Origin: Acidimicrobiia bacterium
GTDB taxonomy: Bacteria; Actinomycetota; Acidimicrobiia; Acidimicrobiales; Bin134
DNA: 64,000 nt
Assembly (NCBI GenBank): GCA_022819825.1
Contig: JAJEGM010000016.1
Coordinates: forward strand, 1 to 64,000
Reading direction: 5' to 3'
Positions 58,163 to 61,051 of the stretch are shown here, in pieces. Both the position numbers and the translations under genes were made by a program. Below the pieces are notes generated by a model that was given only the letters and a program-made list of their open reading frames with translations, made no database searches and had not been told where the DNA came from. Each line of letters begins with the position of its first letter. The stretch's first letter is position 1.

Positions 58163-59350
58163 ATGGCTGAGCCGGCTGGTGTTGCCTGGTTCCACTGCTT
58201 CAGCGGGATCGCGGGCGATATGGCGCTGGGGGCGCTGATCGACGCCGGGGCAGATGTGGCCGAAGTGCGGAACATATGCGAACTGCTGCCCTTGGGCGGT
58301 TGGGATCTACAAGCCCATCCCACCCAGCGAGGGGGTGTCGCGGCTACCGACGTGCGGGTGATCACCCAGGAGACATCGGTGGTGCGTACCGCCAGTCACA
58401 TCAATGCCCTCGTCGGAGAGGCTCGGCTACCCGACCGGGTGGCCGACCGGGCGCTGGCGATCTTCGATGCCCTGGCCCAGGCCGAGGGCAAGCTGCATCG
58501 CCGGCCGCCAGAACAGGTTCATTTCCATGAAGTGGGCGGGCTGGACGCCATCATCGACGTGGTGGGTACGTGCGCTGCGCTGGAAGTACTGGGGATCGAC
58601 CAGGTTTACTCCAGTGCGGTGGCATGCGGGCGGGGAATGATCCGCAGTGCCCACGGGCATCTGCCCAATCCTCCGCCCGCCGTGGTGGAACTGTTGGTGG
58701 GGTGTCCAACGTTCGGCTTGGACGTGGGTCTGGAGCTGACCACTCCTACTGGTGCGGCGATTCTCTCGGCGCTGGCGGAAGGCTGGGGGCCCATTCCGCC
58801 GATGACGATCTCAGCGAGCGGGTTTGGCTCGGGCGACAACCAACTGGAGGATCGTCCCAATCTGACCCAAGTGGTGGTGGGGACGATGGCGGCATCTCGC
58901 CCCGCGGGCCAGCCAGTGATGTTGTTTGAGACCAATGTGGATGACGCTACGGGGGAGACCCTGGCGCACACGGTGGCATCGCTGTTGGATGCAGGGGCGC
59001 ACGATGCCTGGATCACGCCGATCGTCATGAAGAAGGGGCGGCCGGCGTACACGGTGAGTGCATTGGCCGATCCTGCGGTGGGCGATCAGGTGGCGGCCAC
59101 GTTGGCCGAGGAGACGGGGTCTCTGGGGGTGCGGGGGCAGTTGATCGAGCGGTGGCCTCGGGCCCGGTTGGAGCATGAAGTGGACGTGGATGGGCGCCGG
59201 GTTCGGGTGAAGGTGAGCGCGGGGAGAGTCAAGGTTGAGCACGACGAGGCTGTTAGGGCGTCGAAGCTGTTAGGGCTGCCGGCGCGGGAGGTTGTTTCGT
59301 TGGCTGAGGAGGCTTGGCGGCGTCAAGGAGACGACGAGCCAGTTGCCTAG
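58163..59350 (+). CDS. larC: Nickel insertion protein LarC
   Basis: The 395-residue enzyme inserts nickel into the pincer cofactor by CTP-dependent cyclometallation. The N-terminus FHCFSGIAGDMALGALIDAG and VHFHEVGGLDAIIDVVG are diagnostic. The gene is intact in one frame, unlike Lactobacillus larC, which needs a frameshift. A cofactor user (a LarA-type racemase or epimerase) should lie elsewhere. Confidence 0.92.
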   Translation: MAEPAGVAWFHCFSGIAGDMALGALIDAGADVAEVRNICELLPLGGWDLQAHPTQRGGVAATDVRVITQETSVVRTASHINALVGEARLPDRVADRALAIFDALAQAEGKLHRRPPEQVHFHEVGGLDAIIDVVGTCAALEVLGIDQVYSSAVACGRGMIRSAHGHLPNPPPAVVELLVGCPTFGLDVGLELTTPTGAAILSALAEGWGPIPPMTISASGFGSGDNQLEDRPNLTQVVVGTMAASRPAGQPVMLFETNVDDATGETLAHTVASLLDAGAHDAWITPIVMKKGRPAYTVSALADPAVGDQVAATLAEETGSLGVRGQLIERWPRARLEHEVDVDGRRVRVKVSAGRVKVEHDEAVRASKLLGLPAREVVSLAEEAWRRQGDDEPVA

Positions 59351-59360
59351 TATCGAAGCT

Positions 59361-60077
59361 GTGAATGAAGATCGGCTGTACTTCAGACAGCTTTTGTCGG
59401 GGCGGGACTTGGCGGTTGGGGACATGATGGCCCGGCAGATGGTGAATTTCGTCTACCTGATTGGGGATCGGGAGACGGGGGAAGCAGTGGTGGTGGACCC
59501 GGCTTATGACCCACAGGGGATTGTGGATCTGGTTGAGGCCGACGGGATGCGGCTCACCGGCGTATTGGCTACCCATTACCACCCTGATCATGTGGGTGGG
59601 TCGATGATGCAGTTCTCCATCACGGGGGTGGCCGAGCTGCTGGAGCTGGTGTCGGTTCCGGTGCATGTGCAGGCGGACGAAGCCCGCTATGTGACCATGA
59701 CTACCGGTATTGAGGAAGACGATCTGTGTCTGCACAAGAGCGGTGATGTGCTGTCGGTGGGGCAGGTGGACATTGAGATGATCCACACGCCGGGCCACAC
59801 CCCGGGGAGCCAGTGCTTTTTGACCAACGGGCGCTTGGTGGCTGGCGACACTTTGTTCTTGGAGGGGTGCGGGAGGACCGATCTGCCGGGAAGCGATCCG
59901 GCGGCAATGTACGAGAGCCTGACGCAGCGCCTGGCCCGGGTTCCCGACAGTGCGACGCTGTACCCCGGCCATCTGTACTCGCCCCAGCCGTCGGCGTCGA
60001 TGGGCGAGACCCGCCAAACCAACTATGTGTTCATGCCCCGCTCGGCTGAGCAGTGGCTGGCTATGTTCGGCGGGTGA
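59361..60077 (+). CDS. MBL-fold metallohydrolase (glyoxalase II-like)
   Basis: The 238-residue protein has the metal motif THYHPDHVGG (HxHxDH), IHTPGHTPGSQCF, VAGDTLFLEGCGRTDLPG and a terminal YPGHLYS. These match persulfide-dioxygenase/glyoxalase II-like hydrolases. GTG 59361 (MNEDRLYFRQLLSG) is chosen; the frame is open further into larC. TGATG links it to the next gene. Confidence 0.85.
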   Translation: MNEDRLYFRQLLSGRDLAVGDMMARQMVNFVYLIGDRETGEAVVVDPAYDPQGIVDLVEADGMRLTGVLATHYHPDHVGGSMMQFSITGVAELLELVSVPVHVQADEARYVTMTTGIEEDDLCLHKSGDVLSVGQVDIEMIHTPGHTPGSQCFLTNGRLVAGDTLFLEGCGRTDLPGSDPAAMYESLTQRLARVPDSATLYPGHLYSPQPSASMGETRQTNYVFMPRSAEQWLAMFGG

Positions 60078-60457
60078 TGGAAATGAACTCGACTTCCATC
60101 GGCAATCATCTGGCGGCTCTGGACTCCCATGTGGCCGAGCCGCTGGAAGAGTTGGTACAGGCCCTCCACACAGTGGGCTTGGACCCCGCTCTGTTGGAGC
60201 TGTGTAAGGCCCGCATCGAACAGATGATCAACGGGGAAGCATCGGGCTCGGTCCGGGCTCCGAGCGACGAACGGGAAAGGACTGTACTGGCGTTCACCGA
60301 GCAGTACGTATTGGACGCCCACGGAGTGACCGACGAGCTGTGCGCTGAGTTGAACGCTCATCTCTCGCCACCTGAGCTGGCTGCGCTCACTACGGCCATT
60401 GCCACCTACGAAGCCCTGGCCCGCAGCCAGGCCGCACTGAAAGGAATGATGCCATGA
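60077..60457 (+). CDS. Carboxymuconolactone-decarboxylase-like protein without CxxC
   Basis: The 126-residue helical protein (ATG 60077) resembles the CMD/AhpD fold: LLELCKARIEQMINGE, then ERERTVLAFTEQYVLDAHGVTDELCAELNAHLSPPELAALTTAIATYEALAR. The redox CxxC of AhpD is missing, with a single Cys at the matching helix. It overlaps both neighbours (TGATG upstream, ATGA downstream), so it is probably a partner of the next protein. Confidence 0.65.
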   Translation: MEMNSTSIGNHLAALDSHVAEPLEELVQALHTVGLDPALLELCKARIEQMINGEASGSVRAPSDERERTVLAFTEQYVLDAHGVTDELCAELNAHLSPPELAALTTAIATYEALARSQAALKGMMP

Positions 60458-60957
60458 GCAGGATCACGATTCCCGAGGGGGGCATGTCTGCGTTTGACCA
60501 CCAGCCCGAGCTGTTCGCGGTATTCAACCGCTTCTACGGCACGCTGTGGAGCGAGGGGCAGTTGGATCAGGCCACCAAGGAGGTGGGGCGGCTTCGCAAC
60601 GCCCGGGTCAACGACTGCAACATTTGAAAGAACCTCCGCTTCGCAGGTGCGAAGCAGCAGGGACTCACCGAGGATCTGGTGGACCAGATCGAAGATGGCT
60701 ACGCCGATAGCGACCTGCCTGACCGGTTGAAGCTGGCCTTGAGAATGGCTGATGCGGTGATCTCCGACCCGTCAGGGCTGAGCGCGGCGGACCAAGCGGC
60801 GCTGGGCGAGGAGTTCACCCCGGCCGAGCTGGCTGAACTGGCTCTGACGGTGGCCATGGCCGCCGGGTTCTCCAAAGCGGCAATTGCCTGGGGTCCGCCA
60901 CCGGTTATTCCGGTCACCGAAGTGCCCACCCCTACTCCCGATGGAACGGTGGGCTGA
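60454..60957 (+). CDS. Selenocysteine-containing CMD/AhpD-like protein (CxxU), in-frame TGA
   Basis: From ATG 60454 one frame runs 168 codons to TGA 60955-60957 if the TGA at 60625-60627 is read through. The sequence around it is RNARVNDCNI-U-KNLRFAGAK; relatives have C-x-x-C-K-N-L/I-R-F at this point, so TGA replaces the second redox Cys (Cys55/Sec58). Homology continues smoothly after it (LTEDLVDQIEDGYADSDLP, then LSAADQAALGEEFTPAELAELAL). A hairpin typical of bacterial SECIS begins ten bases after the TGA. The protein would be a thiol/selenol peroxidase or oxidoreductase. Ordinary gene calling would give two fragments or a pseudogene. The Sec machinery (selA, selB, selC, selD) is not in this window. 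Confidence 0.85.
60638..60655 (+). other. Putative bacterial SECIS element
   Basis: GCTTCGC, loop AGGT, GCGAAGC: a perfect 7-base stem with a four-base loop containing GG, placed so that the loop lies 18 bases after the TGA. Bacterial SECIS elements have a small loop with a G in the first two positions at about this distance. It is inside the coding sequence, as is normal in bacteria. Confidence 0.8.
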
Positions 60958-60967
60958 GCCCAAGACG

Positions 60968-61051
<84 letters not shown>

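Follow-up and report, generated by a model that had tools for sequence, protein, structure and literature searches.

We propose that two adjacent genes of the window (the whole stretch of 64,000 nucleotides analysed here) specify a single two-subunit enzyme, in which a selenoprotein of the CMD/AhpD-like family would be partnered with a redox-dead paralogue encoded just upstream. For this reading as a whole, which joins the selenoprotein to the two-subunit enzyme, we estimate a probability of roughly 0.62 from the sequence comparisons presented below. Its two parts do not carry the same weight. The product of the gene at 60454-60957 is almost certainly a true selenoprotein, belonging to the CMD/AhpD-like (PF02627) family, while the pairing, coupling and paralogy of the neighbours make it probable that they form one two-subunit enzyme. 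The features concerned are the following.

59292..60077, plus strand: MBL-fold hydrolase (GloB-like), matching PF00753; TIGR03413 at 100 bits, below its cut-off of 200.8.
60077..60457, plus strand: divergent CMD paralogue of 126 aa without a CxxC/CxxU pair, assigned by profile homology; ATGA overlap with the next gene.
60454..60957, plus strand: CMD/AhpD-like selenoprotein gene, proposed catalytic subunit; 167 aa, C55-x-x-U58, PF02627.
60625..60627, plus strand: in-frame TGA, proposed selenocysteine 58; all 28 aligned rows have TGA or a Cys codon here.
60638..60655, plus strand: bacterial SECIS-like hairpin GCTTCGC/AGGT/GCGAAGC; perfect stem of 7 bp, loop AGGT.

The TGA is the sole internal stop of the frame 60454-60957, which is open on both sides of it; the 167 codons, when read through, give the motif CNIU, the TGA taking the place of the second Cys of a CxxC pair as stated in a preliminary description of this DNA. 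PF02627 matches the predicted protein with 43.6 bits (cut-off 23), and both this gathering score and the CxxU motif place it in the family. The gene is coupled to its upstream neighbour, as had also been reported, by an ATGA at 60454-60457 in which the stop of the one overlaps the start of the other. The stop of the MBL-fold gene overlaps the ATG of the paralogue by one base (TGATG); we considered this gene as a part of the conserved unit and rejected it, as it adjoins the pair in this genus only. Under a plain table-11 reading the selenoprotein gene falls into 57 codons followed by a 92-aa ORF, the only piece of it present in the plain ORF list, and no NCBIfam model scores above its cut-off; on these grounds it is plausible, as expected earlier, that standard pipelines would overlook the gene. 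Just downstream lies a tRNA-Leu (CAG) at 60967-61051 on the minus strand, convergent with the selenoprotein gene.

The residues E43, R46, R48, A50, C55, U/C58 and R62 are invariant across 28 aligned rows, composed of the window sequence and 27 rows chosen from 50 loci of relatives. AhpD operates through a Glu-Cys-Cys-His relay, the His being located four residues after the second Cys. The window protein resembles mycobacterial AhpD in its CxxC spacing and in having a Glu 12 positions ahead of the first Cys (here E43 and C55), but it would carry Sec for the second Cys and has Arg62 at the position of the AhpD His. Because of this Arg we do not class it as AhpD in the strict sense, and TIGR00778 gives it 17.1 bits against a cut-off of 27.8. 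It also falls outside NF053654 (YciW-related (seleno)protein), scoring 26.8 bits where the cut-off is 310; the model matches 23 of the 28 catalytic rows and 11 of the 19 paralogue rows with E-values of 0.001 or lower. PA0269 and other CMD structures (2o4d, 2ijc, 7xw1) are matched, by sequence profile, by the catalytic and the paralogue families alike. Compared with PA0269-type CMD proteins, Sec is predicted to replace Cys in the window selenoprotein, and the redox pair is absent from the upstream paralogue.

The preliminary description did not recognise the upstream gene, 60077-60457, as a redox-dead paralogue. Its own product has no Pfam match, and direct BLASTP between the two neighbouring window proteins gave no match either. 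An alignment of 19 paralogues, compared profile to profile with the catalytic family, matched it at E 8.1e-18, and the paralogue profile also matches CMD proteins of the PDB; it is on this profile homology that we assign the paralogue to the CMD family. PF02627 itself matches 6 of the 19 paralogue rows, the window's own not being among them. CxxC or CxxU was found in none of 32 paralogue sequences, of which two (L064 and L025) are incomplete or doubtful at the N-terminus. Inspection by eye showed that some relatives keep a lone Cys at the place of the first redox Cys, with a Glu at the second (CDEE in L083, CAAE in L085 and CQHE in L089), as expected of an eroded redox site. The AlphaFold model of the paralogue consists of helices only, with a mean pLDDT of 87.8.

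The 198 genomes of the order gave 26 strong hits to the paralogue, spread over 12 families, a strong hit being defined as E 1e-18 or better; this cut-off was set after viewing the hit list, and the weaker hits of the profile include ordinary CMD proteins. A catalytic CMD lies within 200 nt of 25 of these 26 hits, the exception being G093, where it is 2.7 kb away. Profile A1 was built from 19 of the 32 paralogues, all of them found beside catalytic CMDs, so that the fair test of the pairing is provided by the 12 hits that came from the profile only. The other strong hits are 11 members of profile A1 together with those of G150, G119 and G051, which had previously been seen. All 12 profile-only hits adjoin a catalytic CMD (the second copies of G134 and G057, and the hits of G170, G195, G063, G026, G112, G144, G076, G053, G180 and G155). 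Within the genus the four-base overlap of the two genes is present in 16/16 loci (L020-L022 and L050-L062, with some repeats). A draw of 396 genomes from the phylum, the order included, gave strong hits in 5. Four of these belong to the order, the window's genome among them; the fifth is G565, whose pair has CxxC.

In family f27, the seemingly lone Sec genes of L029, L030 and L031 have weaker paralogue hits directly downstream. These redox-dead CMD-like stretches (L029 2020-2349, L030 1129-1437 on the minus strand, L031 1990-2328) contain no CxxC within the matched part, and they are found downstream of the Sec gene, not upstream, as is the case in L034.

The catalytic partner of the strong hits has Sec in 22 cases and Cys in 4. 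Neither a selA match nor an above-cut-off tRNA-Sec was found in the Cys-pair genomes (G053, G155, G180 and G102), while selA is present in 18 of 20 Sec-pair genomes and tRNA-Sec in one of the other two (Fisher p 4.7e-4, a value that ignores relatedness, three of the four Cys-pair genomes being of one genus). Running counter to a strict rule, G012 and G127 have Cys-form pairs, with weaker paralogue hits, in genomes that possess selA. It is about an even bet, in our view, that these pairs represent a two-subunit CMD class, spread over 12 families of one order and rare in the draw from the phylum. Its catalytic CMD would have a redox-dead paralogue as partner, and would use Sec as the second redox residue in genomes able to make Sec, or Cys in other ones.

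How could such an enzyme work? SelB with Sec-tRNA would decode the TGA at the hairpin, giving the redox pair C55-x-x-U58, which, judging from the chemistry of the family, would be expected to act as a peroxidase or disulfide-reductase centre. The selenoprotein and the coupled paralogue would be the two subunits of one oligomer, where the redox-dead subunit may serve assembly or substrate binding. CMD proteins are oligomers, and the known AhpD/CMD enzymes are homo-oligomers, which speaks for the main alternative, namely that the selenoprotein works alone as a homo-oligomer and that the upstream paralogue is a separate protein, merely co-transcribed. Other CMD selenoproteins of the order, for instance that of locus L092, indeed lack a redox-dead neighbour within the sequence retrieved around them. 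Against this stands the proximity of a catalytic CMD to nearly every strong paralogue hit in the 12 families, and also a deletion in the sister genome G176 (locus L068), where a single gap of ~576 bp (measured against L054) removes most of the upstream paralogue together with codons 1-87, half of the selenoprotein gene. The remnant is the part behind the TGA, and selA and tRNA-Sec stay in this genome. We therefore consider a selenoprotein acting alone to be a serious possibility, at clearly less than even odds, and we favour the two-subunit enzyme.

The selenoprotein itself is better supported: in relatives, the TGA, the frame that follows it and a hairpin are conserved well beyond chance. A contig scan gave 20 named relatives, 13 of them titled Acidimicrobiia or Acidimicrobiales and the others Sva0996 marine group, Candidatus Poriferisocius, Candidatus Hopanoidivorans, Actinomycetota or just bacterium. 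TGA stands at the CxxU position in 19 of the 20, the remaining one (L068) being the deletion described above. Within the genus, 16/22 genomes have a match at E 1e-15, 15 of them with one TGA and G176 truncated, so that genes broken after the TGA in sister strains, the outcome named beforehand as refuting, are absent from 15 of the 16 matching genomes. No match at this threshold was found in 6/22 genomes of the genus, three of which are at least 95% complete and have selA. A relative (E 1e-6) is present in 63 of the 198 genomes of the order, and in the 30 fetched loci L020-L049 the position is occupied by Sec in 23 and by Cys in 6, 1 being truncated. A Cys at the TGA codon, which the preliminary description had suggested looking for, is found in more distant homologues.

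Selection behaves in the same way on both sides of the TGA. In 13 orthologues, namely the window's own and those of 12 named loci, dN/dS comes to 0.071 ahead of it and 0.083 behind it; 200 codons of the adjacent MBL gene give 0.057, and the +1 frame downstream of the TGA gives 1.8. A pseudogene or two fragments, with the TGA as a real stop, would suit the table-11 reading and the truncated copy of the sister genome, but we reject it as extremely improbable because the TGA is conserved in the relatives and purifying selection behind it is about as strong as before it, and Sec machinery is present.

As first described, a perfect 7-bp hairpin with an AGGT loop is present at 60638-60655, with 10 bases between the TGA and the stem and the start of the loop 17 nt after the TGA. 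Bacterial SECIS elements, according to a review, have a loop of 3-9 nt, a stem of 4-16 bp, a G in the first two loop bases, a distance of 16-37 nt from the UGA and an MFE of -7.5 kcal/mol or lower (PMC13188914). The window hairpin satisfies all of these constraints (4-nt loop, 7 bp, 17 nt, -10.5 kcal/mol), and so passes the SECIS check proposed for it. Taken alone it is weak evidence, because 298 of 3000 synonymous recodings (~10%) also satisfy them, 65/3000 being at least as stable, as do 148 of the 1851 TGAs of the window on both strands. A chance hairpin is thus allowed by the window alone, but its conservation in relatives makes this unlikely.

Indeed, the bSECIS constraints are satisfied by 40 of the 54 Sec rows, or by 33 of the 44 distinct ones, against that background of 148/1851; the 54 rows include the window's own, and they are not all independent, as several named loci come from genomes that are also represented by another locus (e.g. 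L052/L021 and L069/L024). The other 14 fail a strict test for a contiguous stem, and 12 of these retain 6 of the 7 pairs in register, L028 and L039 having 3 and 4. Stem sequences vary while the pairing is retained in place (GCTTCGC, GTTTCGC with GCGAAAC, GCAGCGC, GCCTGGC, TCTAGC), and in L025, as well as in L024/L069 (a single genome), two synonymous changes have turned a C-G pair into U-A. Watson-Crick stems at the place of the hairpin average 3.6 pairs in Cys rows and 5.4 in Sec rows (12 Cys rows from 10 loci versus 34 distinct Sec rows; p 1.4e-4, flattered by the repeated Cys rows L040 = L093 and L047 = L094). When wobble is allowed, some Cys rows also make long stems (9 pairs in L046 and 8 in L080). 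In the 13 orthologues, pS is 0.135 in codons 59-70, which hold the hairpin, versus 0.443 in codons 71-167, and this low value points to a second constraint on the same bases. A second type of hairpin has a CGTGA loop 24 nt from the TGA, where the first has AGGT at 17 nt; it occurs in the f27 loci L029, L030, L031, L033 and L036, as well as in L032 and L034.

A search for selA, selB, selC and selD had been proposed as a check, and all four were found in the window's genome (3.44 Mb, 91.5% complete). The tRNA-Sec lies on C22 (67.5 bits, cut-off 47) and is also called by ARAGORN, with the anticodon TCA; selA (400.4 bits, cut-off 267.9) and selB (276.8 bits, cut-off 242.25) adjoin each other on C43. 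The selD gene, on C29 (L018; 354.9 bits, cut-off 125), has an in-frame TGA of its own at residue 11 of the match, and the best hairpin behind it (8 pairs, loop CCG, 15 nt past the TGA) is just outside the strict bSECIS constraints in its spacing and loop G. In the genus, selA is present in 21/22 genomes, and in the order a selA match (E 1e-30) is found in 117/198. It accompanies the residue: 37 of 40 genomes with a TGA-bearing hit have selA, versus 11 of 23 with TGA-free hits only (Fisher p 1.2e-4, calculated without regard to the relatedness of the genomes). The three TGA-bearing genomes without selA are G063 and G197, both with an above-cut-off tRNA-Sec, and G170 (83% complete), in which TGA genes are present and neither selA nor an above-cut-off tRNA-Sec was found. 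G200 has the selenoprotein gene and tRNA-Sec, and gave no selA match.

As the evidence is of sequence only, one might suppose that suppression or a changed code inserts another amino acid at the TGA, but the tRNA-Sec with anticodon TCA, the SECIS-like hairpin, Cys as the exchanged residue, the TGA of selD itself and the use of TGA as the stop of the two genes just upstream and of the selenoprotein gene leave this explanation hardly any probability. The initial reading of the gene as a selenoprotein is thus supported, its computable checks having been passed.

Selenoproteins of this kind have been described from environmental data, as had been stated at the outset: for AhpD-like 2 (pfam02627, CxxU), the Global Ocean Sampling survey lists 70 selenoproteins in a table (PMC2398784), and CMD-like CxxU proteins of PF02627 are covered in the review cited above (PMC13188914). 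The window selenoprotein therefore adds one more member to a kind already described. Its likeness to AhpD-like 2 is one of Pfam family and CxxU motif; for AhpD-like 2, the available part of the survey names no redox-dead partner, and mentions one gene that adjoined a Prx-like 1 selenoprotein gene (PMC2398784). A pair of CMD/CxxU protein and redox-dead paralogue was not found in the literature searched, as far as its accessible text goes, which is limited evidence of novelty, and for selenoproteins together with Acidimicrobi that literature gave only scattered mentions.

By this analysis, what a plain table-11 reading divides is confirmed as a single gene, and it belongs to a group for which little selenoprotein literature was found. 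It also brings to light natural experiments, in the form of one gene pair that exists in Sec and Cys forms, and of a sister genome from which the pair has been cut out while the Sec machinery is retained. Should the two proteins form a complex, a selenoenzyme has been kept together with a degenerate paralogue, and the role of the dead subunit becomes testable.

The order as a whole looks rich in CMD selenoproteins. Internal TGAs occur in 60 of 96 CMD-like hits (one of them also with a TAG), in 40 of the 198 genomes, the placement of the TGA having been checked in the fetched loci only; G195 has four such hits, and G026, G112 and G170 have three each. The window's genome contains another gene of the AhpD/CMD-like type, in which a TGA (CVVU) lies in frame at base 1928 of locus L092 (G000:C26:19000-23500), and the hairpin of this gene passes the bSECIS test.
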